A DNA stretch of 64,000 bases from Nitrospiraceae bacterium (GCA_019637075.1 JAHBWI010000003.1:558001-622000); one strand, 5' to 3'. Shown: positions 11,921-27,089, counted from the stretch's first letter. Made by a program: numbers and translations. Notes: generated by a model from the letters alone, not told the origin.

Positions 11921-12466
11921 ATGACAAGACGAGGTCGGAGGACAATCGGTTGCGGTGCCTCCGCATGGTGTTGGGTTGCATTGGGGATCATCGGACCCCT
12001 CGCGTGGCCGTCGATTTCACTCGCGAGTCACGCAGCCGATCACCGCTTCACCGTTGAAGGGTTCGTATGTGGCTCCGATGGGAAGGGGCGAGCCGGGGTT
12101 GACGTCCTGGTGAAGGACACCCGGATCACCTACGGGCAGACAGTCCAGACCGATGGTGACGGGTACTACAAGGTTACCCTTCACCTGCATAACGATAACG
12201 TGGGCGACCCGCTGTTGGTGGAAGTCGGCGGGGAGCAGCAGAATCATAAAATTCAGTTTGATCCGAACGACCTCGAGACGGAACGAAAGCTCTGGGTCAG
12301 TTTTGGAAGTGGGTGCGAGAGCGATCTCGGCCCGCCGAAGTGGTTCTTGATCGGGCTGGGTGTCTCGGCTGTTGCTATTCTGGGGTGGATTGGGCTAAAG
12401 ATCTCCCGCAAGCGGGCTCGTGAAGAGCAACGGCAAAGAAAGGGACAGGGCAAGCGGCATAAATAG
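11921..12466 (+). CDS. Secreted, C-terminally anchored protein with a carboxypeptidase-regulatory-like domain
   Basis: The likely start is ATG 11921, with AAGGGG just upstream and an Arg-rich signal peptide (MTRRGRRTIGC... ISLASHA). The in-frame extension back to 11768 overlaps the promoter and is rejected. The mature part (HRFTVEGFVCGSDGKGRAGVDVLVKD... TVQTDGDGYYKVTLHL) is a small beta-sandwich like the carboxypeptidase regulatory/transthyretin-like family. One membrane helix (WFLIGLGVSAVAILGWIGL) and a very basic cytoplasmic tail end the 181-residue protein. The main domain thus sits outside the cytoplasm. Function unknown; the gene is followed by a strong terminator. Confidence 0.65.
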   Translation: MTRRGRRTIGCGASAWCWVALGIIGPLAWPSISLASHAADHRFTVEGFVCGSDGKGRAGVDVLVKDTRITYGQTVQTDGDGYYKVTLHLHNDNVGDPLLVEVGGEQQNHKIQFDPNDLETERKLWVSFGSGCESDLGPPKWFLIGLGVSAVAILGWIGLKISRKRAREEQRQRKGQGKRHK

Positions 12467-12559: not shown

Positions 12560-12612
12560 GACGCTTTTGCCGAGGCTGCCGTACTCCGCCTCGACGAAAG
12601 CGTCTTTTTTTT
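12560..12612 (+). terminator. Rho-independent terminator before the respiratory operon
   Basis: GACGCTTTTGCCGAGGC (12560-12576) pairs with GCCTCGACGAAAGCGTC (12588-12604) over 17 positions with two mismatches around an 11-base loop, and eight T residues follow directly (12605-12612). It lies 94 bases after the upstream stop and 68 bases before the first cytochrome gene. It could end the upstream transcript or act as an attenuator in the operon leader. Confidence 0.88.
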
Positions 12613-12680: not shown

Positions 12681-13187
12681 ATGAAGCACGCAGGATTGAG
12701 CAAGTTGGCTGTCGTCGTCGGCGCGATTGGGTTCGGGCTTGCCGTAGCCGGGTGCGGCGGTGGTGGTGAGGGGGGTGGAGAAGGACCGATCGTTCCTCCG
12801 CCGCCGGCTCCCGCTGAGTATGCCGACAAGCATATGCCTGCCGGATGGTGGACCGATCCGAAGATTGTCGAGGAAGGCAAGGAAATCTACATCGGCGCGA
12901 AGAACCCGGACGTGAACTGCGCCAGCTGTCACGGCAAGGACGGCAAGCCGGTCAAGGCCGGTGCCCGCGATTTCCGCAACGGTGACCGCATGAAGATGTA
13001 CTCGGACTCGGTGTGGTTCTGGCGTATCTCGGAAGGCGTGCCTAACACCAAGATGAAGGCCTGGAAGAGCAAGCTTTCGGATGAAGACCGATGGAAGGTC
13101 ATGGCGTTCGAAGCCAGCTTCGGTCTCGCCGGCAAGGGCTGGGATCCGAACAAGAAGGAATGGGTTCCTGCCAATCAGGTGAAGTAA
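12681..13187 (+). CDS. Monohaem c-type cytochrome lipoprotein
   Basis: The 168-residue product opens with a signal ending in a lipobox (LAVAGC), then a Gly/Pro-rich linker (GGGGEGGGEGP, PPPPAPAEY) and one cytochrome c domain. The haem site is CASCH near residues 75-79; likely distal Met residues are in the segment NTKMKAW. As a periplasmic lipoprotein it would carry electrons near the membrane. AAAGGAGCGGG lies before the ATG. It is the first gene of the operon running to 24114 and precedes the first bd-like subunit by 65 bases, which suggests it is an electron donor or acceptor of that complex. Confidence 0.9.
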   Translation: MKHAGLSKLAVVVGAIGFGLAVAGCGGGGEGGGEGPIVPPPPAPAEYADKHMPAGWWTDPKIVEEGKEIYIGAKNPDVNCASCHGKDGKPVKAGARDFRNGDRMKMYSDSVWFWRISEGVPNTKMKAWKSKLSDEDRWKVMAFEASFGLAGKGWDPNKKEWVPANQVK

Positions 13188-13252
13188 CGAAGGCTGGGTT
13201 TTGAATCTGCGGTGGGTCAATCGGTCGGAATGAGGAGGAGCGGCGAGACATC

Positions 13253-14956
13253 ATGAAAATCTGGCAGCGCTGTTTGTTAGCTCTGTTCGCGATTGTGGCG
13301 GTCTGGGGAGGTGTTGCGTATGCGCAGGCCCCCAGTGCGCCTCCCGTGGAGTTCCCTTACACCGGGAACCGCACGGCGGTCTGGATCGTCGCGCAGCTCC
13401 ACATCCTCTTCGCCGGTTTCATTCTGGGTGCCCCGATCTTCGTGGTCATCTCTGAATGGCTGGGGTACCGCAAACAGGATCCGCGTTACGATCGGCTCGC
13501 GAAGGAGGTCACCAAGGTCACGGTCATTCTTTATAGTATGACCGCGTTGACCGGCGGCCTCTTCATTTTCGTGCTGCTGGCGACCTATCCGCAGTTCACT
13601 ACCTGGTTGATCAATCATTTCTTCCTCATCTTCGCCGTCGTGTATCCGCTGTTATTCATTGCGGAAACATTCGTGCTGTACATGTACTTCTACACCTGGG
13701 ATCACATGAAGGGGGAGAAGAAGGCGCGCCACATTGCTATGGGTGTGCTGCTGAACCTCATCGGAACGATCACGTTGTTCGTGATCGATGCCCCGACTTC
13801 GTTCATGAATACGCCGGTCAAGGCGGAGGGTGTGTCTCCGGCGGAGTTCTTGGCCGCGGCGTCGTTGTGGGACAAGGTGTTCAACTACAGCTGGATGCCT
13901 CTGAACTTGCATCGCCTGGTCGGCAACGTGACCTTCGGTGGGTTCGTGGCCGGCCTGATCGCCGCCTACATGTACATGGGCGCGAAGAAGGATGAAGAGC
14001 GTTCCTATTACGATTGGATGGGTTTCGTCGGCAACATGATCGGCGTGGGCGCGCTCTTGTTCCTGCCGTTCATGGGCTACCTGTTGGCCTACGAACTCTG
14101 TGACTACGACGCCTCGATCTGCCCCTACATGATGGCCGACCAGCTGTCGATGTTCTTCGAAATGCAGGGCGCTATGATCGGGCTAATCTTCTTGGCCAGC
14201 AACTACTATATCTGGCTCAGCATGAAGCGTATCGAAGGTGTTGAGCGGGTCCGCATGACGGTGCTCGCGCCGGTCATCATGGTGGCATTGCCGCTGGTCA
14301 TGACCAAGGTACTCACCGATTACCCCGTGCCGGATCCCCGATCATTGGCCTTCTTGTTGCCGATGTTGCTGGCGCCGGTGATTTTGGGCCGCTTCATCCC
14401 CATCACCGTCTCGTCGAGCACGGTCATTAAGGTCGGCTTCCTTATGGTTGTGGTTGGTAACGCGATTTGGATGACGCCCCACGGATTCGTACCGACCGGC
14501 GCCAAGTTGGTGGCCGAACTCGAACTGCCGTCCGACTGGAACTTCCTGGCCCTCATGCCGGCGAAGAACAGCGCGGCCTTCACGCTGGTGTTCGTCACGG
14601 TCGTCAACTATGTCATTTATAATCGTGCCGTTTCGCAGGGCACGATCGTGTGGGGCAAGATCGACTTCGCCTCGCAATTCGTTCTGGTGTTCTTGGCGTT
14701 CAGCGCCATCTGGACTATGGGTCTGATGGGCGCCGTCCGGTCCTTGCTGCGGAAGTACTTCCACACGTACAACTTGCTGCCGGACTTCACGGCCGAATCC
14801 TTCACGCCGACGCTGTCGTATTCGGCTTGGTGGATTACCGGTATCACGGTGGTGTTCTATGCCGTGGTCAGCTTCGCGATCATCGTGACCTTGCGTCCCT
14901 CCGACTCCAAGGGCCATGCCCATGAGGCGAGCCCGGTTCCAGCGGGGGCGAAGTAA
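13253..14956 (+). CDS. Cytochrome bd-like oxidase subunit I homologue (first copy)
   Basis: This 567-residue polytopic protein is a distant CydA homologue. A first His at residue 50 (VAQLHILFAGFILGAP) fits the CydA N-terminal haem ligand, and H220 (LNLHRLVGN) fits the second haem region. It lacks the GRQPW quinol-loop motif of true CydA, and no CydB gene is present. Unusually it starts with a signal-like segment (VWGGVAYAQA). Published Nitrospira genome work describes several such bd-like proteins and discusses them as candidate terminal oxidases. Here it stands among c-type cytochromes and a Rieske/cytochrome b pair, so exchange of electrons with those is likely; oxygen reduction is not shown by the sequence. 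Confidence 0.85.
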   Translation: MKIWQRCLLALFAIVAVWGGVAYAQAPSAPPVEFPYTGNRTAVWIVAQLHILFAGFILGAPIFVVISEWLGYRKQDPRYDRLAKEVTKVTVILYSMTALTGGLFIFVLLATYPQFTTWLINHFFLIFAVVYPLLFIAETFVLYMYFYTWDHMKGEKKARHIAMGVLLNLIGTITLFVIDAPTSFMNTPVKAEGVSPAEFLAAASLWDKVFNYSWMPLNLHRLVGNVTFGGFVAGLIAAYMYMGAKKDEERSYYDWMGFVGNMIGVGALLFLPFMGYLLAYELCDYDASICPYMMADQLSMFFEMQGAMIGLIFLASNYYIWLSMKRIEGVERVRMTVLAPVIMVALPLVMTKVLTDYPVPDPRSLAFLLPMLLAPVILGRFIPITVSSSTVIKVGFLMVVVGNAIWMTPHGFVPTGAKLVAELELPSDWNFLALMPAKNSAAFTLVFVTVVNYVIYNRAVSQGTIVWGKIDFASQFVLVFLAFSAIWTMGLMGAVRSLLRKYFHTYNLLPDFTAESFTPTLSYSAWWITGITVVFYAVVSFAIIVTLRPSDSKGHAHEASPVPAGAK

Positions 14957-14994
14957 GGTACGACTACGAGTAGGGAGCGAGAAACGAGGCACTC

Positions 14995-15798
14995 ATGGGA
15001 AATATCATCAAGAAAACCATCATCGGAGTTGTGATCGGAGGAATTCTGTTCGGGGCGACCAATGCCCTTGGATTCCCCTTCGTGTTCCAAGCGCTGTTCT
15101 TCGGCTATGCCATGCTCGGCGCCATCGTGTTCATTATCTTGGATTTGCCGACGCTGAAGCCGTTCGGCGGCGTAAAGGCCGTCGGAGCCTTGATCGTATT
15201 TTACGTTGTCCTTTGCGTCGTCTATATTTCGGGTGCTTCGCTGTGGCCCCAATATGATCCCGAGGACGAGAAGGGCAAGATCGACAAGATTCTCAAGCCG
15301 AAGCGGGAACAATACGAGGCCGGCAAGGTCGATGTGTTGATGCAGCGCGCAAAGGCCTTGGACGAAAAGGCCAAGGAGCTCACGGCGCGTCTTCAGTCGC
15401 TCGGCGCGGCCCAGGCCCCGGCCGATCAAAAAGCCGGTGGTGATTCGGCGCCGACCTCGACTGTGGCTTCCAGCGGAGATATTGCGAAAATGGGCGAGGA
15501 ACAGTGGCAGCTGCAGGAGTGCTACAACTGCCACAAGTTGAAGGGTGAAGGCGGCAAGAAGCGCGGTCCGGAACTCGACAACCTGGGCAATCTGCTTTCG
15601 GCGGATGAAATTGCCCGAAAGATTCTCGATCCGAAGAGCTACAAGGCGGAAGGTTTCGATCAGGAGTACGAGAAGGGTAAGATGCCCGACAAGTACAAGG
15701 ACCTGATGGAACCGAAGGACGTGCAGGCGTTGGCTGCGTGGTTGGCGACGTTCAAGAATGCGTCGGTCAATACCCCGAAGCCCATCAAGATGAAGTGA
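14995..15798 (+). CDS. Membrane-anchored monohaem c-type cytochrome
   Basis: The 267-residue product has three probable N-terminal membrane helices within residues 7-82, a charged coiled-coil linker (EQYEAGKVDVLMQRAKALDE), an Ala/Pro/Ser-rich linker, and a C-terminal cytochrome c domain with the haem site CYNCH near residue 177. The domain's likely Met ligand is in KGKMPDKY. Anchoring through several helices and a long linker would let the haem domain swing between partners. The Rieske gene begins two bases after its stop, so the two proteins are probably made together. Confidence 0.88.
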   Translation: MGNIIKKTIIGVVIGGILFGATNALGFPFVFQALFFGYAMLGAIVFIILDLPTLKPFGGVKAVGALIVFYVVLCVVYISGASLWPQYDPEDEKGKIDKILKPKREQYEAGKVDVLMQRAKALDEKAKELTARLQSLGAAQAPADQKAGGDSAPTSTVASSGDIAKMGEEQWQLQECYNCHKLKGEGGKKRGPELDNLGNLLSADEIARKILDPKSYKAEGFDQEYEKGKMPDKYKDLMEPKDVQALAAWLATFKNASVNTPKPIKMK

Positions 15799-15800
15799 GC

Positions 15801-16742
15801 ATGATGCAGCCGAAACTGAAATCGAAAGTTCGTTGTACCGATCGTGAGGTGGGGGAAGTCCGCCGGATCGTTATGGATCCGCTCTCCCATGAGATCAGCC
15901 ACATTGTGGTTGGCGGTGACGGCATGGGGCCGGCCGAACGGCAGGTACCCATCGGTCAAGTGCAGGGTGTCACCGAGGAAGCGGTCACGCTGCGTTTGGC
16001 CTCGGCCGACTTTGGGGGGCTCCCACCGTTCAAGCGCGACGAGTATGTGACGACCCACGAGGTGGAAATCGCCCACCTCGAGGAGAAGATCCACGTCACA
16101 CCCGGTGAGGTGCTGGTTCCGTTCCCTGAGTTGGAGCGGAGCGTCAAGCGTCGGACGTTCTTCGCAAATTTCACCCACGCCATCGGCTTCCTGATCGGAT
16201 TTCCGTTGGCCTTCCCAGTCCTGAAATATCTGATGAAGCCGATGTATGCGCCCTTCGACAACAGCTGGCTCAAGATCGGCAATGTCGGGAAGATCAAGCA
16301 GGACGATGTCGGCATTCAGTATAAGTACAAGCGCAAGGTCAAAGAAGCCTACATGCCCGAACAGGAAATCGACAAAAACGTTTGGGTGCTGAAGGCGACG
16401 CCGAAAGTGTTGGAGACCATCTATCAAGGCAAGGACATGGAGTTCCGTGATGCCGCCGGGAAGCACGTCTGGACGAACAAGAAAGATGTCCCGTACGTGG
16501 CCTATTCGGGTAAATGCCCCCATCTCGGATGCGGCTTCAAGTGGCGGACCCACAAGACCCTTGGCCAGGTGTTTCTCTGCCCTTGCCATCTGAGCATCTA
16601 TGACGCGGCAGGCAAAGTGTTGGACGGACCGGCCCCTCGGGCGTTGGATCCGCTCCCGATTCAAGTGACGGCCACCGGCGAAATCGCCATTATCGACATG
16701 GAATTCAAAGCGGGCACCAAGGCCCAGGTTCGGATTGTCTAA
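15801..16742 (+). CDS. Rieske iron-sulfur protein with N-terminal PRC-barrel-like domain
   Basis: The 313-residue product has three parts. Residues 6-66 look like a PRC barrel (VRCTDREVGEVRRIVMDP... ERQVPIGQVQGV). Residues about 122-145 form one membrane helix. The C-terminal part is a Rieske domain: box 1 CPHLGC gives C239 and H241 as [2Fe-2S] ligands and C244 for the disulfide, box 2 CPCH gives C260 and H263 as ligands and C262. It would pass electrons from quinol at cytochrome b to a c-type cytochrome. ATG 15801 is preferred to the longer frame from 15738, which lies inside the previous gene. Cytochrome b starts directly after the stop. The barrel is not part of ordinary Rieske proteins. 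Confidence 0.92.
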   Translation: MMQPKLKSKVRCTDREVGEVRRIVMDPLSHEISHIVVGGDGMGPAERQVPIGQVQGVTEEAVTLRLASADFGGLPPFKRDEYVTTHEVEIAHLEEKIHVTPGEVLVPFPELERSVKRRTFFANFTHAIGFLIGFPLAFPVLKYLMKPMYAPFDNSWLKIGNVGKIKQDDVGIQYKYKRKVKEAYMPEQEIDKNVWVLKATPKVLETIYQGKDMEFRDAAGKHVWTNKKDVPYVAYSGKCPHLGCGFKWRTHKTLGQVFLCPCHLSIYDAAGKVLDGPAPRALDPLPIQVTATGEIAIIDMEFKAGTKAQVRIV

Positions 16743-17858
16743 ATGGATACGACCACGCAGCCGACCAATCAGCAGCCTTCAGTCATCGAACAGGTTCTTG
16801 CCTTCGTCGACGAACGCGTCGGCCTGAAGACCCTTCAGGCCAAGATGCTCAACGAGCCGGTCCCCGGAGGGTCTCGCTGGGCCTATGTGTTCGGTTCCGT
16901 CCTGCTCTTCATCTTCATCATGCAGGCCGTGACGGGCATCCTGTTGATGTTCTACTACGTGCCGACCGCCGACCATGCCTACGCGAGCACCCAATACATC
17001 ATCCACACCGTCGATTACGGCTGGTTCCTCCTCAGTTACCATTTCTGGGGATCCACCGCGATGGTGGTCTGTGTGTTCGCCCATATGTCGCAGGTGTTCC
17101 TATGGGGCGCTTATAAAAAGCCCCGCGAGCTCATCTGGTTGGTAGGTTTGGCCCTGTTTGGGATCGTGATGGGATTTGGTTTCACCGGTTACCTGCTCCC
17201 GTGGGACCAGCGTGCCTATTGGGCCACCACGGTCGGCGTCGAGATCATGGACAAGACGCCCGTGCTGGGTGACTTCATGGCTCGCTTCCTCAAGGGCGGT
17301 CCGACGCCCGGCCAGATGACCCTCAGCCGATTCTTCGTCATTCACGTCATGGTGCTCCCGGCGGCGCTGATGGGGCTCGCCGGTCTCCACCTCTTCCTGT
17401 TCCGCAAAGCCGGTCCTGCCGGGCCGTTCCGCGGCAGCGTGGAGGAGATCAAGGCCAAGACCGACTACTTCTTCCCGCGTCAGATTTGGAAAGACATCGT
17501 GGGAATGGTGGTGGTGTTCCTGTCGATCTGCAGCCTTGCGTTCTGGGAGCCGGTCGTTCTGCTTGAAGAAGCCACGCCCGATCCCGGCGACTACCATCCC
17601 GAGCCGGAGTGGTACTTCTTGTTCCTGTTCCAATTGCTGCGTTTGAAGGTGTTCGCGGGAGAGTTCGGGCAGTTCCTGGGCGCGATTGCGTTGCCGGGTG
17701 TCTTCATGGCGTTGCTGGCAGCCCTGCCGTTCATCGACCGCGATCCCGAAAGAAACATTTTCAAACGGCCTATCGCGCTGATCAGCTGGATCGTCGTGAT
17801 GTCCAGCATCCTGATTTTCACCGTGGCCGCGATCATCAACCGTGAATTCCTCGAATAG
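16743..17858 (+). CDS. Cytochrome b, b6-type with subunit-IV-like C-terminus
   Basis: This 371-residue subunit binds two b haems and the quinol sites of a bc-type complex. Haem ligands are H100 and H114 in one helix and H201 and H216 in the other. Fourteen residues lie between the second pair, the spacing known for b6-type rather than mitochondrial-type cytochrome b. The Qo-site motif PEWY is at 288-291. The chain carries on into a subunit-IV-like region, so b6 and subunit IV are fused and shorter than classical cytochrome b. The start follows the Rieske stop with no gap, which supports a shared complex. Confidence 0.95.
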   Translation: MDTTTQPTNQQPSVIEQVLAFVDERVGLKTLQAKMLNEPVPGGSRWAYVFGSVLLFIFIMQAVTGILLMFYYVPTADHAYASTQYIIHTVDYGWFLLSYHFWGSTAMVVCVFAHMSQVFLWGAYKKPRELIWLVGLALFGIVMGFGFTGYLLPWDQRAYWATTVGVEIMDKTPVLGDFMARFLKGGPTPGQMTLSRFFVIHVMVLPAALMGLAGLHLFLFRKAGPAGPFRGSVEEIKAKTDYFFPRQIWKDIVGMVVVFLSICSLAFWEPVVLLEEATPDPGDYHPEPEWYFLFLFQLLRLKVFAGEFGQFLGAIALPGVFMALLAALPFIDRDPERNIFKRPIALISWIVVMSSILIFTVAAIINREFLE

Positions 17859-17876
17859 CCGGAGGGTCTGGGGCAC

Positions 17877-18896
17877 ATGACGGGTCGAGAAAGCATGTCG
17901 TCATTTAAGTTAGGGCTCACCATCTTCTGGAACGCCTGCTGGACGGCCCTGCCGATCAAGATGGGCTTCGCGCTCCTCTTCATGGCGATGGGCACGATGC
18001 ATCTCGAGAACAAGCTGGCCGTGGCGTTCTTGTTTCTCCTGATCAGTCCGGTCAGCGTCTTTGCGTTCTTTGTGGTGACCGGGGCGTTGGGTTTTCATTT
18101 CGGCGAGGGGCTGGGACTGACGTTCCTGCTTCTCATTTCCATCCCGATCGACATTTGGGCAATTGGGTTGGTGTCTCGGACCGCCTTCCTCGAACGGCTG
18201 CGTATTGAGCCGCCCGCATCGATCGGTTCAGCCTTGTGGGTCAGGTTTGCCCTGGCTGGGGCGATCTATTTGCCGTTGTTGTGGCTCATCGAGGGGGGCG
18301 CGACGGATGTGGCGCGTTCGTTGGCGCACGACATCGTAAACAGCGACATGCTCAAGGCTTTGCCGGTGGCGGAAAAGATCGGTCTTGAGCTCAGCATCTG
18401 GGGCACCGTCTCGACGGTAATGTTGGTGATTTTGTGCCTTGTCGGCATGACGATTCTCGGGCGGCTCGTTCAGAGCAAGGTGAATCAAGCCAATGCCCTG
18501 AGCGACAGTTACCAAGGTTTGATTACCCGTTGGGATATGGAGCGAGTTCCTGCAGACCAGAGCTTGATGCTGACGGCCTTTACCGGCGTCGGTGCCGTCA
18601 TGAGCATTCTCTTCTGGGCCGTTCTTCCGGTGTCTACGCCCCATCCCCATGAATGCTGTAAACCGGCCGAAGTGAAGGTGGAGCCGGCCTACGATCTGCA
18701 GAAGTCACTCACCAAGGACGAAAAGTCCTTCAAAGATTCCGAAATGAAGATCGCGGCCCTCGAAGCGAAGGCTGCCGAAGAAGAAAAGCAGAAGGATAAG
18801 GCGCCGGGCAAAGAGAAGGCAGCTGCCAAGGATAGTGCGCCGAAGGCGGATGCCAAAGCACAACCAGCCCCTGGGGGAAAGCCGGCAGGTAAGTGA
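17877..18896 (+). CDS. Unknown membrane protein of the respiratory operon
   Basis: I do not recognise the family. The 339-residue protein has about seven hydrophobic segments in its first 250 residues, then a periplasmic or cytoplasmic tail rich in Lys, Ala, Glu and Pro. Where the tail begins there is HPHECC, a possible metal-binding cluster. GGAGGG lies 12 bases before ATG 17877; ATG 17895 is a possible start. It lies between cytochrome b and the second bd-like subunit, with one base between its stop and the next start, so it is probably a structural or assembly part of the same complex. Confidence 0.7.
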   Translation: MTGRESMSSFKLGLTIFWNACWTALPIKMGFALLFMAMGTMHLENKLAVAFLFLLISPVSVFAFFVVTGALGFHFGEGLGLTFLLLISIPIDIWAIGLVSRTAFLERLRIEPPASIGSALWVRFALAGAIYLPLLWLIEGGATDVARSLAHDIVNSDMLKALPVAEKIGLELSIWGTVSTVMLVILCLVGMTILGRLVQSKVNQANALSDSYQGLITRWDMERVPADQSLMLTAFTGVGAVMSILFWAVLPVSTPHPHECCKPAEVKVEPAYDLQKSLTKDEKSFKDSEMKIAALEAKAAEEEKQKDKAPGKEKAAAKDSAPKADAKAQPAPGGKPAGK

Positions 18897-18897
18897 T

Positions 18898-20778
18898 ATG
18901 AAGGTTAAGGACGAGGTGACAACCATGGTGCACCAGGCTCGGGCTCATACGAAACGGTGGAATCAGCTGCTGGGTCGTGTGGCCCTCTTTGCGGGAATCG
19001 CGGCAGTCTTCGGGCTGCTGGGAATGCCCGATGCCGGCTACGCGGAAGGTGGAAGCGGGCAGACCGAGTACCGAGACATTCCCGGTATCGGCAGCCGGAA
19101 TTTGGTCTGGATTGTCGCGCAGCTTCACTTGCTCCTCGCGGGGTTCGTGCTCGGGGTGCCGATTTTCGCCTGGCTGTGCGAAGTCGTGGCCTGGAAGTCC
19201 GGTGACAAGCGGTACGACAAGTTGGCTAAGGAGTTCACGAAGCTGTTGACCTCGTCTTATGCGACGACGGCGCTCTTCGGCGGTATCCTATTGTTCCTCC
19301 TCGTGGCCTTCTATCCCAAGTTGATGAACTACCTGACGGACATTTTCTTTCCGTCATTCCTGCTCTACTGCATGCTGTTCCTCATCGAAACCGCGACCCT
19401 GTACCTCTATTGGTACGGCTGGGATGCGATGGCCGAAGGCGGCAAGAAGAATCTTCACGTGTTCCTGGGTTTCCTGCTGAACGTCTTTGCTTTCTTCATC
19501 ATGATCGTGCCGAATTCATGGGCGACCTTCCAGGCGAGCCCCGTCGTGATTGCGGAAGGAACCGATTTCCAGCGCGCCTGGGCCGCAACGTGGAATCCGA
19601 CCTGGTGGCCTGTGAACATTCACCGGATCATCGCCAACGTCGTATTGGGTGGGTATATCTGCGGCGCCTATGCCGGTATTCGCTATCTGTCCGCGAAGAC
19701 GACCGAAGAGCGTTACCACTACGATTGGATGGGTTACGTCGGCAACTTCATCGGCGTGTTCGGTCTGTTGCCCCTCCCGTTTGCCGGCTACTGGCTGATG
19801 CGGGAAATCTATCAATACAACCAGCAGATGGGCATTACGCTCATGGGCGGATTCCTCTCCTGGCTGTTTATCCTGCAGGCCATGCTCATCGGAGTCCTGT
19901 TCCTCAGCGCCAACTATTATTTCTGGCTCGGCATTACGCATCGCATCCCAGGATCGGAAGTGCAATATCGCAAGCCGATCATGGCGATGTTGGTCATCCT
20001 CCTCCTCTGTCTCGGCGTGTGGATGACGCCGCACTCCCTTGTGGCCAGCTTGGAAGAAGCCCGGAAGATGGGCGGCACGCACCACCCGCTCCTGGGTGTA
20101 TTCGGAGTTATGTCGGCCAAGATGACGGTGTCCAACCTGATGATTCTCGTGACGTTCATGAGTTTCATCATGTATTGGCGCGCCGGCAAGGAAGATACGG
20201 CTGGATGGGCGAAGGCCGCCAAGGCCGTCATGGGCGCCGTACTGGTGCTCGCGGGTATTGCCGTCATTGTGCTCGGTGTGTGGGGATATTTCGTCCCGGC
20301 AATCATCCGCATCAACTACTTCTCGACCTCCCAGGTCGGTATCGTCCTGTTCGTGATGTTGACGATTACGCCACTGACGGCATTGCTGTTGAAGAGTGCC
20401 AAAACCACCACCGAAATGGTGTGGGGGAAAATGCCGCCGCGCGCGGGCTATTCCTTGGTCCTCAACGCAATCATGGTCATTCTTCTGATGACGTTGATGG
20501 GCTATGCACGGTCCTCCTCACGGGTCCACTGGCACATCTACGGTGTCATGCGTGACTCCTCTCCCTATGCCTATTCACCGGCTCTCGGGTACGCTGCCGC
20601 GTTCATGGCGCTATGCACGTTCCTGTTTTGTCTGCTGGTGGCCTTCATTTTCTGGGTGGCCACAATGGGAGACAAGGCCAAGGCGGCGGCAGGCGGGCAG
20701 GCGACCAAGGGTGCGGTGCCGCAGGGTGCGTTGCCGCAAATGGCCGGTGGATCACCAGACAATCCGTCCCAGGGATGA
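18898..20778 (+). CDS. Cytochrome bd-like oxidase subunit I homologue (second copy)
   Basis: This 626-residue paralogue of the product of 13253-14956 shares its order of motifs: VAQLHLLLAGFVLGVP with H77, NIHRIIANV with H242, and HYDWMGYVGNFIGV where the first copy has YYDWMGFVGNMIGV. It also has a signal-like N-terminus (ending DAGYAEGG) and lacks GRQPW. The C-terminus is Ala/Gly-rich. ATG 18898, one base after the preceding stop with AGGT upstream, is preferred over the in-frame ATG at 18835 inside the previous gene. The two copies may form a heterodimer in place of CydA-CydB; this is inference. Confidence 0.85.
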   Translation: MKVKDEVTTMVHQARAHTKRWNQLLGRVALFAGIAAVFGLLGMPDAGYAEGGSGQTEYRDIPGIGSRNLVWIVAQLHLLLAGFVLGVPIFAWLCEVVAWKSGDKRYDKLAKEFTKLLTSSYATTALFGGILLFLLVAFYPKLMNYLTDIFFPSFLLYCMLFLIETATLYLYWYGWDAMAEGGKKNLHVFLGFLLNVFAFFIMIVPNSWATFQASPVVIAEGTDFQRAWAATWNPTWWPVNIHRIIANVVLGGYICGAYAGIRYLSAKTTEERYHYDWMGYVGNFIGVFGLLPLPFAGYWLMREIYQYNQQMGITLMGGFLSWLFILQAMLIGVLFLSANYYFWLGITHRIPGSEVQYRKPIMAMLVILLLCLGVWMTPHSLVASLEEARKMGGTHHPLLGVFGVMSAKMTVSNLMILVTFMSFIMYWRAGKEDTAGWAKAAKAVMGAVLVLAGIAVIVLGVWGYFVPAIIRINYFSTSQVGIVLFVMLTITPLTALLLKSAKTTTEMVWGKMPPRAGYSLVLNAIMVILLMTLMGYARSSSRVHWHIYGVMRDSSPYAYSPALGYAAAFMALCTFLFCLLVAFIFWVATMGDKAKAAAGGQATKGAVPQGALPQMAGGSPDNPSQG

Positions 20779-20854
20779 TGACGGTCGCACGGTGATGAAT
20801 TACTAGTTCTGAGTTGGAAAACTCACAACTATACACTCAATAGTCGGGGACTCT

Positions 20855-21469
20855 ATGAGCGAAGTCGTTAAACTGCAGCTAATCGGTCTCTGTGTGATCG
20901 GCCTCGGAACGGTCATTCTGCTGTTCGTCAAGGCGCAATTCCTTCGGGTGATCGGCTTCGTAGCCATTGTCCTGGGACTCTTCTCCCTGGTGGCTCTCGC
21001 GGTGCCTCAGATGGCCTCGCTGCCTCCCGCGGAGGAAAGCATCAACATCGCCGACATCAAGACGCCGACCGACATGGCTTCGATCGGACAGAAAATTTTC
21101 TTCAGCAAGGGCCAATGCGCGCTCTGTCATTCCATCGGACCGAGCGAATCGGCGCGCTGTCCTGATTTGAAGGGCATCGGATCCAAGTTGTCGCGCGAGT
21201 TCCTCTTCGAGAGTTTGACTGAACCACAGGCGTACATTTACCTGGACTATCGTCACGAAGGCGCGCCGAAGGAATATCCGGCCCGGATGCCGTACATCAA
21301 TAAGAACCCGATCGGGTTGTCGAGAAACGAAATTCTGTCGGTCATCGCATTCCTCCAGCAGATGAGCGGTGAGCCGATCAGCGTGAATCCGTCGGACCTG
21401 GAAATGCCGGGAGCGACTCCGGTGAAGGCTGCTGACGCCGGTATGGTATCAGTGGCGCAGGCCCGTTAG
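20855..21469 (+). CDS. Membrane-anchored monohaem c-type cytochrome
   Basis: The 204-residue protein has two N-terminal membrane helices (QLIGLCVIGLGTVILLFV and VIGFVAIVLGLFSLVALAV) and a cytochrome c domain with haem site CALCH near residue 88. PARMPYI probably supplies the distal Met. A small hairpin (TGAGTT, loop GGAA, AACTCA; 20810-20825) lies in the 76-base gap before it, the widest gap within this part of the operon. It may set a boundary in mRNA stability. The role is electron transfer on the periplasmic side of the membrane. Confidence 0.88.
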   Translation: MSEVVKLQLIGLCVIGLGTVILLFVKAQFLRVIGFVAIVLGLFSLVALAVPQMASLPPAEESINIADIKTPTDMASIGQKIFFSKGQCALCHSIGPSESARCPDLKGIGSKLSREFLFESLTEPQAYIYLDYRHEGAPKEYPARMPYINKNPIGLSRNEILSVIAFLQQMSGEPISVNPSDLEMPGATPVKAADAGMVSVAQAR

Positions 21470-21498
21470 TCGATCCTGGGAGACGTGTAGGAGGCGAT

Positions 21499-22224
21499 AT
21501 GGGTGGCGTACTTGTCAGACCGGTAATCCTGACGGTCATTGTCTATCTGTTTTTGAAGTTTGTCGTTCCGAATCTGCCGCACTCCGCGCCGTTGCCCTCG
21601 AGCCTGATTTTTGTATACCTCATGCTCACGCTTACCGGCGTGGTAATTTTCGCCACCCTGAGCGGCGCGTCGAAGGACGCCTTCTTCGGTCCGATTTTCC
21701 GCTTTCTGTCGGGCGAAGCGGGCGCGGCCATGCAAGCGCCTCGCTATTTGGTGCTGGCCTTGTTCCCCCTCCTGATCGGATGGCAGACCTACGGCAGCAC
21801 GGCACCGAGCGATGCGCCTCCGGCCGAAAACCGCACCATTCACCCGGCACCTCCGGGCGAATACAGCGGTTTGTCGAATCCCGTGCCGAAAACGCCGGAA
21901 AACATCATGTACGGCAAGGGTCTGTATGCGTCACGCTGCGCCCCTTGCCACGGGAATTTTGACGGCAAAGGCTTTGCGGCTGCAGGGTTCAATCCTCCTC
22001 CGGCCAATTTTAAGGATCCGACGACGATCGCGATGTTGCAGGAGAGCTTCCTCTTCTGGCGCATCAAGAAGGGCGGCGTTGGTCTGCCGGTGGAAGGCAT
22101 GCCGTGGAAGTCTGCGATGCCGCGCTGGGAATTGGAAATGTCCGACGAGGACATTTGGAAAGTGATCATGGGTGAGTATGACGGCGCCGGTCAGAAGCCC
22201 CGTACCTGGGACGAAACCGAGTAG
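21499..22224 (+). CDS. Membrane-anchored monohaem c-type cytochrome
   Basis: The 241-residue product has three hydrophobic stretches (residues about 6-25, 36-55, 80-97) and then a Pro-rich linker and a cytochrome c domain. The haem site CAPCH is near residue 151, and GMPWKSAMPRWE gives candidate Met ligands. AGGAGG precedes the ATG. Its C-terminal domain resembles that of the first cytochrome of the operon (FLFWRIKKGG compared with VWFWRISEG), so the two cytochromes are related and may bind equivalent partners. Confidence 0.88.
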   Translation: MGGVLVRPVILTVIVYLFLKFVVPNLPHSAPLPSSLIFVYLMLTLTGVVIFATLSGASKDAFFGPIFRFLSGEAGAAMQAPRYLVLALFPLLIGWQTYGSTAPSDAPPAENRTIHPAPPGEYSGLSNPVPKTPENIMYGKGLYASRCAPCHGNFDGKGFAAAGFNPPPANFKDPTTIAMLQESFLFWRIKKGGVGLPVEGMPWKSAMPRWELEMSDEDIWKVIMGEYDGAGQKPRTWDETE

Positions 22225-22267
22225 GCAGCCGTTCATCGGCACCGCGTCGCGTAATTAAGGGGAACGT

Positions 22268-23092
22268 ATGGCACGAGCGAGGAGAAGGGGACAGCGATCG
22301 ATAATGGGGGTACTGGCCCTCGTCGGGCTGGGCCTGGTATGGGGAACCATGCCTGCGCACAGTCAGGAGAGCGTGGCTGTGCGGGCCAATCTCGTCAAGG
22401 GCAGTTTGCCGACCGACGACCCAACGGCTGCGGCGTGGGCAACGGCGCAGCCGGCGGAATTCCCGATGTCCCCCCAGGTACATTGGCCGGTGCGAATTAC
22501 TGAAGTGACGGCGAAGACCGTCAAGGTGCGCGGATTACACGACGGCAAGAACGTCGCGATCATGGTGGAGTATTCCGATCCAACGGAAGATCCGGACGAC
22601 GCCGCCGCGCTTGAATTCATGGTCGGTGACACGAAGGCCCACTTCGCCCACGGCCAACCGATGTTTCAGGTCGAAGGTGGCCCGGTCAATATCTGGTACT
22701 GGAAGAACAAGGATGGGAAAGGTGTCGACATGTCCGCGAAGGGCTTCGGCACCTTGAAACCCCAATCCCATCAAGATGTGAACGCCAAAGGCGTCTATCA
22801 GTCCGGCACGTGGAAAGTGGTGTTCTCACGTCCGCTGGCCACGGAGCATCCGACTGAGGACACCCAGATCAAGCCCGGAGACTTCATCAGCATCGCCTTT
22901 GCGGTGTGGGACGGCAAGAAACTCGAAAGCGGGCAGCCCAAGGAAAAGGGCTCGGAAAAGGCGATCTCCTCGTGGTGGTACTTCCGTGCGGAACCGCCAC
23001 CCGACTATTCACCGTACATCTACGCCCTGCTTGCAGTGGCATTGGCGGTAGGTTTCGAGTTAGTCCTCGTGAGACGACTAAAGAAAGGGTAG
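22268..23092 (+). CDS. NxrC-like / ethylbenzene dehydrogenase gamma-type haem-binding protein
   Basis: This 274-residue secreted protein looks like the haem b-binding gamma subunits of type II DMSO reductase enzymes, the group that includes the candidate gamma subunit NxrC of Nitrospira nitrite oxidoreductase. It has a signal peptide (ending AHSQE), the opening motif DPTAAAWATAQP, and the phrase GGPVNIWYWKN typical of the fold; known relatives use a Met/Lys haem pair. It ends in a membrane helix (YIYALLAVALAVGFELVLV) with a basic tail, so it is anchored. No alpha or beta subunit is nearby. In this operon it probably serves as an electron-transfer subunit of the bd-like complex. Confidence 0.78.
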   Translation: MARARRRGQRSIMGVLALVGLGLVWGTMPAHSQESVAVRANLVKGSLPTDDPTAAAWATAQPAEFPMSPQVHWPVRITEVTAKTVKVRGLHDGKNVAIMVEYSDPTEDPDDAAALEFMVGDTKAHFAHGQPMFQVEGGPVNIWYWKNKDGKGVDMSAKGFGTLKPQSHQDVNAKGVYQSGTWKVVFSRPLATEHPTEDTQIKPGDFISIAFAVWDGKKLESGQPKEKGSEKAISSWWYFRAEPPPDYSPYIYALLAVALAVGFELVLVRRLKKG

Positions 23093-23097
23093 CGAGC

Positions 23098-24114
23098 ATG
23101 AGGGCGTGGGGACGGATACGCGTTGCAGGAACGGTAGCGGGACTCATCGGTCTCTTCGGTGTGATCGGCGCGGGTTGCTCGATGTTCCAGAACGAGCAAT
23201 CGGCAAAGGGGCAAAAGCTCTATGCCCACTATTGCATGCACTGTCACGGCGAGCACGGACGGCAGAATGAGGGCTTCAACTGGTCCTCCATGACCGACCC
23301 GAAACCGAAGGATCTGTCCAACAAATCGGAAATGGGGACCTTCAAAGACGAGGATATCTTCAACACGATTTCCCGTGACATGAAGGACACCAGCCCAAAC
23401 GGCGACAAGATCGGCGACGACGAGTTCGCGGTGCCGACCATGCCGACGTTCAAATATACCCTCTCGGAAGAAGAAATCTGGGCGATCGTGGGCTATGTCC
23501 GAAGCCTGCATGGCATGAAGCTGGAGTTTAAGGTCGACGGCCGAAAGAAGGAATTGGAAGAGGCCAACAAGGCCGCTGAGCAAAAATTTGAAGAAGCCAA
23601 GCGCGTGGCAGAGGAAGCCGAAAAGAAGGCCACCGAGGAAGCCGAGAAAAAGAACGTCGACGTCGACGACAATGCCTTTGCCAAAGAAGTCGCGGTAATG
23701 GGCCAAGCCAAGAAGGCAGCGGACGCCGCGGCGGAAAACCTGAAGAACTTTACGACTCGCCCCGGCAAAGGCGTGAACATCACCAGACCGGACCTCACGA
23801 TGAAGGCGGATGCCGAAAACAAATTGGCGGAAGTCGGCAAGCGGCTGTATGTGAACAAGTATGGCTGCAACGGTTGCCACAAGATCGGCGACGAAGGCGG
23901 CAAGGTCGGTCCCGCATTGGACCGCGCCGGGTTCCGTTTGAATCCGACGTGGGTCTATCGCTGGTTGCGGAATCCTCAAGCCATGAAGCCAGACACCCGG
24001 ATGCCCGCGCTGGGATTCACGGACGCGGATGCCAAGGCCGTGAGCTTGTACCTCAAGACCTTGCGCGCACCGAAGCCAGACAAGCCCATCGATAAGGTCG
24101 AGACAGAAGGCTAA
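23098..24114 (+). CDS. Dihaem c-type cytochrome lipoprotein
   Basis: ATG 23098, with AAAGGG upstream, gives a signal peptide ending in a lipobox (VIGAGC); the longer frame from 22906 overlaps the previous gene and is rejected. The 338-residue protein has two cytochrome c domains: CMHCH in the first and CNGCH in the second. Between them is a long Lys/Glu/Ala-rich helix (ANKAAEQKFEEAKRVAEEAE), probably a coiled coil. The second domain has RMPALGF as its likely Met site. It ends the operon; its stop overlaps the stop of the convergent prenyltransferase by four bases. Confidence 0.9.
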   Translation: MRAWGRIRVAGTVAGLIGLFGVIGAGCSMFQNEQSAKGQKLYAHYCMHCHGEHGRQNEGFNWSSMTDPKPKDLSNKSEMGTFKDEDIFNTISRDMKDTSPNGDKIGDDEFAVPTMPTFKYTLSEEEIWAIVGYVRSLHGMKLEFKVDGRKKELEEANKAAEQKFEEAKRVAEEAEKKATEEAEKKNVDVDDNAFAKEVAVMGQAKKAADAAAENLKNFTTRPGKGVNITRPDLTMKADAENKLAEVGKRLYVNKYGCNGCHKIGDEGGKVGPALDRAGFRLNPTWVYRWLRNPQAMKPDTRMPALGFTDADAKAVSLYLKTLRAPKPDKPIDKVETEG

Positions 24115-25013
24115 CCGACGGCGGCAATACTGCCGAGCCACAGTCCAACTAGGATGGCGGCGCCGGCATAAATGTGTTGATAGAACATCGCAAAGGCCTC
24201 TGGCGGAGTCAGAGGCCTTTGCAGTTTCTGGAGCTGTAGGGCGAAGATACCCGCCGAAACGAGCAGCAGCGCGTAATACGTGTAGCCCAACCCACTCACG
24301 AGCCCGGCGAACACGAGGCATCCCAGCATTCCGGTCAGACAAAGGGCCACCGCCATCGGCACGTGATTCCCGAACCACAGGGCCGAGGATTTCACTCCGA
24401 CGCGACGGTCATCGTCCCGATCCTGGAGCGCGTAGATCGTATCGTACGCCACCGCCCAGCAAACGGTGGCGCCGAATAGGAGCCACGCCGGCAACTCGAC
24501 GGTGTCGCGTGAGGCGGCCCAGGCCATAATCGCCCCCCATCCGAAGGCGACGCCGAGCATGGCTTGGGGCAAGTGAATCCAGCGCTTCATGAGCGGATAA
24601 CAGGCGGCGAGCGCGACGGCGATCGGGCTGAGCCAGATCGTGAGAGGATTGAGCCGTAGGACCAGGCCGCCGGCGATGACGAGTAGCACTGCGGCAATGA
24701 TCAGGGCCTGGCGAACGGACAGCCGCCCGGAGGCGAGGGGACGTGTCAGCGTTCTAGAGACCTGGCGGTCGAAGTTGCGATCGGCGAGATCGTTGAACAC
24801 GACTCCAAGACTGCGCATGACGAATGCGCCGGCGACAAAAGTCGAGACCAGCGAAACCGGTGGAAGCCCCTGGTTGGCCAGCACGAGGCTCCAGAGGCTG
24901 GGCAACAGTAAGAGCCAGGTGCCGGACTGATTGCGAAGCCGGATCAGGTCTGCGGCGGCGGACCAGGTGAACGGTGGGTCGGGCCGATCGGCCGAAGAAT
25001 GGTTGCTGGTCAC
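24111..25013 (-). CDS. UbiA-family polyprenyltransferase
   Basis: This polytopic enzyme (about 300 residues) joins a polyprenyl chain to an aromatic acid during quinone synthesis. The two Asp-rich diphosphate-binding motifs are NDLADRNFD (74-82) and YDTIYALQDRDDD. The start is probably GTG 25013, which gives the family length; in-frame ATG 25118 would run into the divergent gene. Because this type of organism uses menaquinone, the enzyme could be UbiA-like MqnP of the futalosine route rather than true UbiA; the sequence alone does not decide. Placement beside the respiratory operon fits a role in quinone supply. Confidence 0.88.
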   Translation of the reverse strand: MTSNHSSADRPDPPFTWSAAADLIRLRNQSGTWLLLLPSLWSLVLANQGLPPVSLVSTFVAGAFVMRSLGVVFNDLADRNFDRQVSRTLTRPLASGRLSVRQALIIAAVLLVIAGGLVLRLNPLTIWLSPIAVALAACYPLMKRWIHLPQAMLGVAFGWGAIMAWAASRDTVELPAWLLFGATVCWAVAYDTIYALQDRDDDRRVGVKSSALWFGNHVPMAVALCLTGMLGCLVFAGLVSGLGYTYYALLLVSAGIFALQLQKLQRPLTPPEAFAMFYQHIYAGAAILVGLWLGSIAAVG

Positions 25014-25106
25014 CGCAGGGACGATAACGGAGGGCCTGCGTCCTGTCAACGGCGCGAGAGCAGGATCGGTTGTTCGGGCCTTGGGGATTGGGTATAAGGA
25101 ACTATC

Positions 25107-27089
25107 GTGCCGTATCATCTTATGGATCAGCAAAGCGGGAGAAGGCGGAAGGCCTTCGGTAAGGCGGCCGTGGCGGCAGTGCTGTGCATCGCGCTGTCGG
25201 GGTGCCAGTTCTTCTCTCAACGTAGCGGCCTGTCGACGAACTACAATCTCCCACTGACGGTTCAGCTTCGTCTTGATGCCAGCATCGTCGCGGCCGAAAT
25301 CCAATATCGCGATGCCTGCGGAAAAACCGTCAGCTTGCCCATCCATCCGCAACTGGAACAAGCCATTGAGAAACGGATGAAGCGAGTTTTTCAGAAGGTC
25401 TTGCCGGTCAATGACTTACAGTCGACCTCGGACGGGAGGGTGGATGCCGCGCTGGGCCCTCATCAGATCGATCTCTTCGTGCCACGAAAGAGCAACAAAT
25501 CCTATCCGGCCACTGCCACATTGGGAGTCGAGTTTTCCTATACTGACCAACAGGGCAATCTCCTGCACAGTAAACGATTGCAGGCTTCTGCCACCGGCGA
25601 AGCAGAGGCGAAGGCTGATACCTGCGATGTGACTGGAGTCGGTCCAGCGGTCCAGGAGGCTATTGAGAAGTTGGCCGAGGGCATGGCCGAACAGCTTGGC
25701 ACCGCGTCGAAGGTACGCGAAGTGGCGCAGCTGAAGAAAAGCGGCAGCGCGCCGGTTGCGACGCCGATCACGCCCATGGAATCCGCTATGCCTCACGCAG
25801 CAGGGGCCGCGACCGCACCGTCGGTCTCGGTCGTTCCGGTGGAGCCCCCATCGGCGCCGGTGCCTGCGTCTGCCCCCGTCCCCACTCCGTCTCAGCCGGC
25901 GGAGCTGCAGGCCGGACCCACCAAGCTCTCGTTCCGGACGATCCTCCGTGATGAGAGTCGCAACCAGATTCTGGAGCAGGCGGAGCCCTTCACCGTCGAA
26001 TTTGAGGTGAAGAATGAGGGCACGGTGGCGGCGCAGGCGGTGGAAATCGTGCTGGCCGGGCATCCGGCGATCGTGGGCGAACTGAAACCGACGGTCGTGG
26101 TCGGAGTGATCGAGCCTGGTCAGGTTCGCCGGGTTGCGGTCGAAGGCAAGTTGGGTCAGGTGTCGGGGGCAGAGCAAGGCGAATTGATCTGCACGCTGCG
26201 GGCTGCCGCAGGGGTCGAACTTCCGGCTCCCAAACGATTCGTGGTGGCTATCAGTCCGGAACGTGCCGACGAGGTGGAAGTCCTATCGGTTGACGTGGAT
26301 CAATTGCCGAAGACGCCTGGAAAGTTGAAACAGCCCAATGCCGTGGGGATCGCCATCGGTGTCGGCAGTTTTCGTGATCCCGCCATGCCGGCCGTAAAGT
26401 TTGCCGCGCGTGACGCGGAGGTCGTGGGCCAGTACTTCCATTCTGTCCTGGGAATTCCCCTGCCGAGGGTCAAGGTCGTCACGGACAGCCACGGTCTGAA
26501 AGACGATCTCGCTGAGGTTTTCGAACGGTGGCTTCCGAAGCAGGGCGGGCCGCCGACCATCGCCTATGTCTATGTGTCTGGGCGGGCTGTGGTCGACGCG
26601 ACCTCCGGGGCGGTGTCGATCATTCCCTACGATGGGTCGCTCGTCTCCACAGGGCGTATGTTTTCCCTCGCCCGTGTGCAGCGGGCACTGGCCCATACCT
26701 CGGTCAAGAAAGTCGTCTTGTTCTTGGATCTCTCCCTGGATCCCTCGCCGGGTGCCGACTCATCCAAACCGACCCAGCCGGTCTGGGAAGAGTCAGATGG
26801 CCAGCAAGCGGTGATGTGGATGGTGGGAAATCCTATCCTGCAGGAAGCGCACGCCCATCAGCAAGGCCAGCACGGACTCTTTACCTACTTTCTCCTGAAG
26901 GGATTACGGGGCGCTGCCGATCTGGACAAGAATGGAACGGTCCTTACGGGGGAACTTTGCAGTTACGTGCATGGACAGGTCACCTCGGCGGCGAGAAATC
27001 AGTTCCACAATTCACAGGAACCACTGTGTCGACCAGGCAATGGAGAATTCTCGCCGATACGAGGGCTGCCGTTGAGCAAGCTGAAATAA
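25107..27089 (+). CDS. Lipoprotein with a CARDB-like and a degenerate caspase-like domain
   Basis: The 660-residue product starts at GTG 25107 (AAGGA six bases upstream) and has a lipobox LSGC with Cys33. Residues about 35-200 are a mixed domain, then a Pro/Ala linker, a CARDB-like beta-sandwich (FTVEFEVKNEGTVAAQAVEIVL) and a C-terminal domain (about 410-645) with the layout of peptidase C14/caspase: AVGIAIGVGSFRD... KFAARDAEVVGQYF... PTIAYVYVSG... VVLFLDLSLD. Where active family members have SGHG and DxCxSG, this protein has SGRAV and DLSLD, so both catalytic His and Cys are missing. It is probably a non-enzymatic scaffold at a membrane; the function is unknown. Confidence 0.72.
   Translation: MPYHLMDQQSGRRRKAFGKAAVAAVLCIALSGCQFFSQRSGLSTNYNLPLTVQLRLDASIVAAEIQYRDACGKTVSLPIHPQLEQAIEKRMKRVFQKVLPVNDLQSTSDGRVDAALGPHQIDLFVPRKSNKSYPATATLGVEFSYTDQQGNLLHSKRLQASATGEAEAKADTCDVTGVGPAVQEAIEKLAEGMAEQLGTASKVREVAQLKKSGSAPVATPITPMESAMPHAAGAATAPSVSVVPVEPPSAPVPASAPVPTPSQPAELQAGPTKLSFRTILRDESRNQILEQAEPFTVEFEVKNEGTVAAQAVEIVLAGHPAIVGELKPTVVVGVIEPGQVRRVAVEGKLGQVSGAEQGELICTLRAAAGVELPAPKRFVVAISPERADEVEVLSVDVDQLPKTPGKLKQPNAVGIAIGVGSFRDPAMPAVKFAARDAEVVGQYFHSVLGIPLPRVKVVTDSHGLKDDLAEVFERWLPKQGGPPTIAYVYVSGRAVVDATSGAVSIIPYDGSLVSTGRMFSLARVQRALAHTSVKKVVLFLDLSLDPSPGADSSKPTQPVWEESDGQQAVMWMVGNPILQEAHAHQQGQHGLFTYFLLKGLRGAADLDKNGTVLTGELCSYVHGQVTSAARNQFHNSQEPLCRPGNGEFSPIRGLPLSKLK

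Follow-up and report, generated by a model that had tools for sequence, protein, structure and literature searches.

A conserved eleven-gene operon of Nitrospiraceae that probably encodes a bc-type complex together with a bd-like, cytochrome c-oxidising oxygen reductase

Introduction

Nitrospira are among Earth's main nitrite oxidisers, yet for most of them the oxygen-reducing enzyme has never been reported in the literature as isolated. Mundinger 2019 described a region of N. moscoviensis that comprises CIII_1, bd-like_1, bd-like_2 (a putative complex IV), alt_nxrC_1 and cytochromes c, the genes of which are highly transcribed during nitrite oxidation, and a III-IV supercomplex, possibly contacting nitrite oxidoreductase (NXR), was proposed for that organism in 2019 (PMC6606698). 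Papers of 2024-2025, following Murali 2021, treat the NIDE0901-like OR-N2 chain together with an OR-N1 chain as a cytochrome c-using CydAA' oxidase (PMC12342949, PMC10839748); both the OR-N1/OR-N2 assignment and the cytochrome c donor are hypotheses of that literature. According to PMC12324825, the quinone of Nitrospira is methyl-plastoquinone, with a potential of about +57 to +59 mV, and complex III is believed to operate in reverse while nitrite is being oxidised. Here we analyze an operon of this kind, located at positions 12681-24114 of a 64,000-nucleotide stretch of DNA from a Nitrospiraceae bacterium (GCA_019637075.1, JAHBWI010000003.1:558001-622000; henceforth the window).

The original prediction for this stretch held that the operon may encode one large alternative quinol-cytochrome c supercomplex. 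Both the gene cluster and the supercomplex idea are already known, and the latter is not new because it was published in PMC6606698. As set out below, we favor a quinone-linked bc complex encoded alongside a cytochrome c-fed oxygen reductase, and we describe variants of the operon in which one bd-like chain is fused to a cytochrome c and accompanied by subunits of the Mrp/NuoL type.

Results

An Eleven-Gene Operon Conserved as a Unit

The operon consists of eleven genes on the + strand, with successive gaps of 65, 38, -1, 0, 18, 1, 76, 29, 43 and -1 bases. Three gene starts were corrected, those of the Rieske protein (15798, not 15738), bdB (18898, not 18835) and the di-haem cytochrome c5 (23092, not 22906). 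The genes are as follows.

12681-13187, + strand: c1, mono-haem c-type lipoprotein (CASCH; lipobox-like Cys25; PF13442)
13253-14956, + strand: bdA, CydA-like chain of the bd-like_1, OR-N1 type (PF01654, E 8.5e-24, positions 3-240)
14995-15798, + strand: c2, mono-haem cytochrome c with a membrane anchor, possibly equivalent to c1/f (CYNCH; PF00034; transmembrane segments)
15798-16742, + strand: Rieske protein with an N-terminal, cytoplasmic PRC-barrel-like domain (PF00355, E 1e-8)
16743-17858, + strand: b6-type cytochrome b with PEWY, its C-terminal part fused (PF00033, 1.1e-47; PF00032, 1.3e-8)
17877-18896, + strand: membrane protein of unknown kind, about six helices, with a conserved TPHPH motif (in all spanning loci but one)
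18898-20778, + strand: bdB, CydA-like chain of the bd-like_2 kind, NIDE0901-like, OR-N2 (PF01654, E 1.6e-13)
20855-21469, + strand: c3, membrane-anchored mono-haem cytochrome c (CALCH), fused to bdB in other genomes
21499-22224, + strand: c4, membrane-anchored mono-haem cytochrome c (CAPCH; PF13442)
22268-23092, + strand: alt_NxrC_1-like protein with an EB_dh fold and a C-terminal transmembrane segment (PF09459, E 7.4e-24)
23092-24114, + strand: c5, di-haem c-type lipoprotein (CMHCH and CNGCH; PF00034, E 2.1e-19)

The gene content and the mostly short gaps (-1 to 76 bases) are as originally predicted. The same is true of the five c-type cytochromes, in which six CXXCH motifs were counted; of the Rieske protein, the b6-type cytochrome b, the NxrC-like protein and the membrane protein of unknown kind; and of the two CydA-like paralogues, both of which match PF01654 and lack the GRQPW motif, with no CydB in the operon.

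Eighty related loci (numbered with the prefix L) were fetched, of which 53 span the whole region. In 52 of these 53 Nitrospirales loci the eleven genes are collinear, in the same order and on the same strand, which is far beyond chance; the order is identical in N. defluvii (L007) and N. moscoviensis (L025). Nearly the full order is also found in two families outside Nitrospirales but of the same class (L118 and L119), where our screen of open reading frames did not show c4 and c5 in the former or NxrC in the latter. The sole exception, L079/L149 from the metagenome-assembled chromosome CP070743.1, looked at first like bdA and bdB without a bc complex, but because its operon is split in two, its Rieske protein ends at residue 182 and its cytochrome b is missing, we regard it as a probable misassembly and not as evidence. 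All six haem sites are conserved in at least 97% of orthologues (58-77 per gene). That the eleven genes constitute one conserved functional unit is strongly supported.

The bd-like Chains Resemble CydA Only in Helices 1-5

Both CydA-like chains match PF01654 solely in its N-terminal part (about 240 of 418 positions), and searches of the Protein Data Bank (PDB) with them returned canonical CydA alone, over the N-terminal half. Likewise, when profiles were aligned to seven canonical CydA proteins, the match was confined to helices 1-5, with probabilities of 97% for the bdB family and 93% for bdA. Beyond the fifth helix the alignment fails, and the quinol-binding Q-loop region is not recognizable in either chain (see also PMC3578206). 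Within the aligned part, the equivalents of E. coli H19 and H186 are kept in both chains (H50 and H220 in bdA; H77 and H242 in bdB). Among orthologues, H50 and H220 of bdA are invariant and H160 and H504 are also retained, while the conserved histidines of bdB are H77, H242, H379, the pair H395-H396, H544 and H546.

The C-terminal half, including the region of the b558 ligand M393, aligns unreliably with CydA. A weak second local profile match places S541-R-V-H-W545 of bdB on GRQPW, and for this reason GRQPW looks as if it has been replaced by R-x-x-W-H, the histidine of which (H546 in bdB, H504 in bdA) is invariant in all 43 family members compared. Besides the bdB orthologues, Manganitrophaceae-type fusions and L126-L130 have the H395-H396 pair; it is absent from bdA, which has E-L instead, and from two bd-like genes on contig C10. 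This pattern provides a basis in conservation for the published claim of a Cu_B-like site in bd-like_2.

Fusion of bdB to Cytochrome c3

In-frame fusions of bdB to c3 were found in L019, L120, L121-L125 and L160. The junction in L019 lies at c3's own start, so that loss of a stop codon could account for it; the junctions of L120, L123 and L160 have in common a distinct linker. The fusions are no more than suggestive of a cytochrome c as the electron donor to bdB.

They also bear on a refinement in which bdB alone would be catalytic and bdA would serve as a structural or proton-path subunit in the place of CydB. This arrangement would be in keeping with the restriction of the HH pair to the bdB class, with the incomplete conservation of H379 in bdA and with the existence of Manganitrophaceae-type loci that have the fusion and no adjacent bdA, but bdA retains H50, H160, H220 and H504 and may hold haem. 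We consider the refinement quite possible, if somewhat short of probable.

In L121-L125 the fusion is adjoined by two proteins of approximately 500-600 amino acids. Those of L123 belong to Proton_antipo_M (NuoL/M/MrpD-like), and the L121 pair is homologous to them; this arrangement, a fusion plus two pump-like proteins, matches TO_2 of Manganitrophaceae (PMC9040806). Two further loci combine such a set with the operon. L120:3107-17925 (genome G131, Nitrospiraceae, 99% complete) keeps the operon's other genes and has, in addition, the fusion followed by two Mrp/NuoL-type subunits (fusion-Mrp1-Mrp2). L160:2323-14582 (G272, of another genus, 72% complete), whose contig ends upstream of c2, likewise keeps other operon genes and has the fusion and both pump-like subunits, in the order Mrp1-Mrp2-fusion. 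The bdA of L120 groups with the N. moscoviensis lineage (93 in the Shimodaira-Hasegawa-like approximate likelihood ratio test), whereas its bdB clusters with the TO_2-type fusions (88/85), and placement with Nitrospirales bdB was rejected (p = 0.025). L120 thus looks like an in-place replacement of the oxidase module, which suggests that bdB and c3 function as one unit beside the bc genes.

As to the sequences themselves, the L160 fusion is possibly a mosaic, L120-like in the region of the third helix and otherwise like Nitrospirales bdB, and in both fusions the E107-equivalent glutamate of helix 3 is serine (STTTLY versus ETATLY). A close Mrp1 is present in four of 175 Nitrospiraceae genomes, with the copies in L161 and L162 lying in an unrelated context; the operon of the window has no MrpD-like subunits. 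We found no description in the literature of the bdB::c3 fusions or of the two Nitrospiraceae operons that carry a fusion with two Mrp/NuoL-type subunits.

Oxidase Content of the Genome and Its Relatives

The whole genome from which the window is taken contains no match to COX1 (PF00115) at E<=1 and no match to CydB (PF02322) above cut-off. Its four CydA-like genes are all of the bd-like kind. (A weak PF02322 match of 17 bits lies at G000:C3:333781-334182, inside a frame of 959 amino acids.) In a survey of 90 Nitrospiraceae genomes with a completeness of 95% or more, bdB was detected in 88 at a threshold of E<=1e-250. Of the 90, 22 had no COX1 match and no CydB above cut-off, and because 21 of those 22 have bdB, most relatives that lack another recognized oxidase appear to depend on an OR-N protein. 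The bdA/bdB pair of the operon is the best candidate oxidase.

The bc Side of the Operon

The hallmarks of bc1/b6f complexes, namely the Rieske cluster motif, four cytochrome b histidines and PEWY, are all present. In the Rieske protein the cluster motifs are C240-P-H242-L-G-C245 and C261-P-C263-H264, and the second, as CPCHLSIYD, has serine at H+2 and tyrosine at H+4. Serine and tyrosine at these positions accompany a high potential, and by this motif the protein is of the high-potential type. A PRC-barrel-like domain (window 15798-16178) precedes its single predicted helix. The PRC-barrel model was matched by eight of 12 orthologues (best E 2.2e-4), with the window protein below the Pfam cut-off, and a PRC barrel is thus the probable identity of the N-terminal domain. 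Cytochrome b has the histidine pairs H100/H114 and H201/H216; the 14 residues that separate H201 from H216 give it b6-type spacing, and all four ligands are at least 97% conserved. The c2 gene, which encodes a membrane-anchored protein, shares 1 base with the Rieske gene; no family model identifies c2 as c1/f. Finally, the membrane protein of unknown kind (17877-18896) is conserved with the operon and has an invariant HPH motif, and it found no match in Pfam, NCBIfam or the PDB.

Relatives in Deeper Nitrospirota

In L126, L128, L132, L135 and L136 we found a module consisting of a bd-like protein, c3 and c4 homologues and an NxrC-like protein. In L131 (2508-10788), L133 and L134, the bd-like protein, c3 and c4 lie beside a protein of 1147-1149 amino acids. 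Pfam identifies in L131 a molybdopterin enzyme with a twin-arginine (TAT) signal, an Fe-S subunit and a chaperone resembling nitrate reductase delta, and BLAST an NxrC-like protein; the molybdoenzyme shares 41% identity with three NxrA-like proteins encoded in the window's genome. The H19-equivalent in the L131/L133/L134 group is methionine, and H379 is arginine. We found no description in the literature of bd-like, c3 and c4 genes of deeper Nitrospirota in an NXR-like molybdoenzyme operon. It may be that the ancestral job of the module was electron exchange with enzymes like NXR or nitrate reductase (NAR), oxygen reduction being a feature of the bdB class.

These loci invite an alternative in which the bd-like chains are not oxidases at all but cytochrome c:quinone modules, comparable to alternative complex III, that link NXR with the quinone pool. 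The company of an NXR-like molybdoenzyme in L131, the 1147-1149-amino-acid neighbors in L133 and L134 and the methionine at the H19-equivalent in this group all point in that direction, as does the conservation of the bd-like_3 cluster in anammox bacteria (PMC3578206). However, the quinol-binding Q-loop region is not recognizable (see also PMC3578206); the bdB of the operon keeps both H19 and an HH pair, which most of those relatives lack; and the genome would be left without a recognized oxidase. We therefore judge this alternative unlikely.

Borders of the Operon and Neighboring Features

The operon is bracketed by two hairpins, which lie among the following neighboring features.

11921-12466, + strand: membrane-anchored carboxypeptidase-regulatory-like (Ig-fold) protein (PF13620 below cut-off), the upstream neighbor in 46 of 52 loci
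12560-12612, + strand: hairpin and U-run, intrinsic terminator or attenuator, 68 nucleotides before c1
24189-24223, no strand assigned: palindromic hairpin, probable transcript end, where the operon and ubiA converge (minimum free energy [MFE] -30.4 kcal/mol, z -4.8)
24111-25103, - strand: UbiA-type prenyltransferase (quinone synthesis), convergent neighbor in 47 of 48 loci (TIGR01474, 293 bits against a cut-off of 275)

The leader hairpin (MFE -28.2 kcal/mol, z -4.2, followed by eight T's) was found in 47 of 54 loci, in most cases 45-106 nucleotides from the start codon, with compensatory changes at six of 15 pairs. Its stem, CGCTTTT...AAAGCG, is conserved in sequence to an extent that exceeds the needs of a plain terminator. 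A second copy was found nowhere in the 64-kb window, and the fetched loci have at most one each. The hairpin either terminates transcription of the upstream gene or attenuates that of the operon; because a terminator comes after it, the gene at 11921-12466 probably has its own transcript. The downstream hairpin is a 14-pair palindrome on the 3' side of the last gene. The internal gaps tested contain no structure comparable to the bracketing hairpins, which, with hairpins at both ends, supports one transcription unit but does not prove it. A scan for sigma-70 promoters gave nothing above chance.

The hairpins bear, too, on whether the products form one physical III-IV supercomplex (plus NXR), in which the oxidase would locally drive a reversed complex III, an idea compatible with the bc complex plus oxygen reductase favored here. 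Strict co-conservation, the bdB::c3 fusions and the terminator-like hairpins around the operon would fit such an assembly. Shared regulation also yields conserved operons, however, and the module of bd-like, c3, c4 and NxrC genes occurs without adjoining bc genes in other lineages. We entertain the supercomplex tentatively, as rather less than probable.

Farther out, a gene upstream of the cluster (9988-11004) encodes HpnH (adenosyl-hopene transferase), well above cut-off, and a 660-amino-acid protein with a weak caspase-like match (NF047832) is encoded at 25107-27089, where it overlaps the beginning of the convergent ubiA region.

Discussion

Our principal conclusion, which is drawn from sequence comparisons, is that the operon probably encodes a bc-type complex and a cytochrome c-oxidizing oxygen reductase of the OR-N CydAA' kind with c-type cytochromes in common. 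The idea of one quinol-cytochrome c supercomplex stands insofar as the genes form one conserved unit (52 of 53 loci collinear), but a quinone-linked bc complex together with a cytochrome c-fed oxygen reductase is the likelier content of that unit. We favor this reading because alignment to CydA does not extend past helix five, because bdB is fused to c3 in other genomes, and because no other recognized oxygen reductase is present in the genome. The bc-type complex would comprise the Rieske protein, the b6-type cytochrome b and probably c2, and in the oxygen reductase bdA and bdB would replace CydA and CydB, with c3 docking on bdB. Electrons from periplasmic NXR would enter via alt_NxrC_1, c5 and c4. 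The downhill branch would lead from c3 through bdB/bdA to O2, and a smaller, uphill branch from c2 and the Rieske protein through cytochrome b to methyl-plastoquinone, serving CO2 fixation. Oxygen reduction, the direction of electron flow and the task of each cytochrome are inferred, as would be any supercomplex formed by the products.

Several observations weigh against assigning the bd-like chains as oxidases. The equivalents of E99 and E445 are tyrosine and serine in these chains. AlphaFold models for bdA and the bdB::c3 fusion from L019 (predicted local distance difference test [pLDDT] 59 and 56) offer no usable geometry for haem or metal ligands. One Nitrospiraceae genome that is 99% complete (G227) has no bdB at the threshold of the survey and no COX1 or CydB match, and the literature reports no purified enzyme of the OR-N/bd-like family. 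Moreover, since bdB relatives occur with NXR-like molybdoenzymes and, as the literature has it, in anammox bacteria, a bd-like fold alone does not imply an oxidase.

A more speculative extension, which we think improbable as it stands, is that one coupled machine would split nitrite electrons between O2 (downhill, via bdA/bdB) and quinone (uphill, via a reversed bc complex), and that in some Nitrospiraceae the in-operon Mrp/NuoL-type pumps on the bdB-cytochrome c fusion would strengthen the coupling. The cluster is in any event the leading candidate for the O2-reducing enzyme of Nitrospira. Its fused and Mrp-bearing variants, as handles on the pairing of cytochromes with chains and on a possible coupling of the oxidase to ion pumping, are the part most worth following.

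How does the operon compare with known systems? With CydAB of E. coli, the bd-like chains have in common helices 1-5 with H19 and H186; unlike that enzyme, the window has no CydB, has R-x-x-W-H in the place of GRQPW, has no recognizable Q-loop, and has Tyr for E99 and Ser for E445. From the haem-copper oxidases it is set apart by the lack of a COX1 domain; H379, H395, H396, H544 and H546 of bdB are conserved, at distances that are unmeasurable in the poor models. In the account of OR-N CydAA' (Murali 2021) given in PMC10839748, the traits in common with the operon are two CydA-like chains together, no CydB and no recognizable quinol site; the placement of bdA and bdB as OR-N1 and OR-N2 follows literature naming (NIDE0901-like being OR-N2; PMC12342949), and the activity is putative. 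The CIII_1/bd-like_1/bd-like_2/alt_nxrC_1 region of Nitrospira (PMC6606698, PMC12342949) has the same kinds of genes, and the window is not substantially different from it, but published accounts of that region make no mention of bdB::c3 fusions, of the in-operon Mrp variant in Nitrospiraceae, of the PRC domain or of the leader hairpin. Finally, TO_2 of Ca. Manganitrophaceae (PMC9040806) shares with the window a bd-like protein, cytochromes c and a cytochrome b-like protein of the periplasm, and TO_2-type loci carry the homologous bdB::c3 fusion. TO_2 has two MrpD-like subunits and the window none, and between these arrangements L120 and L160 stand as intermediates.

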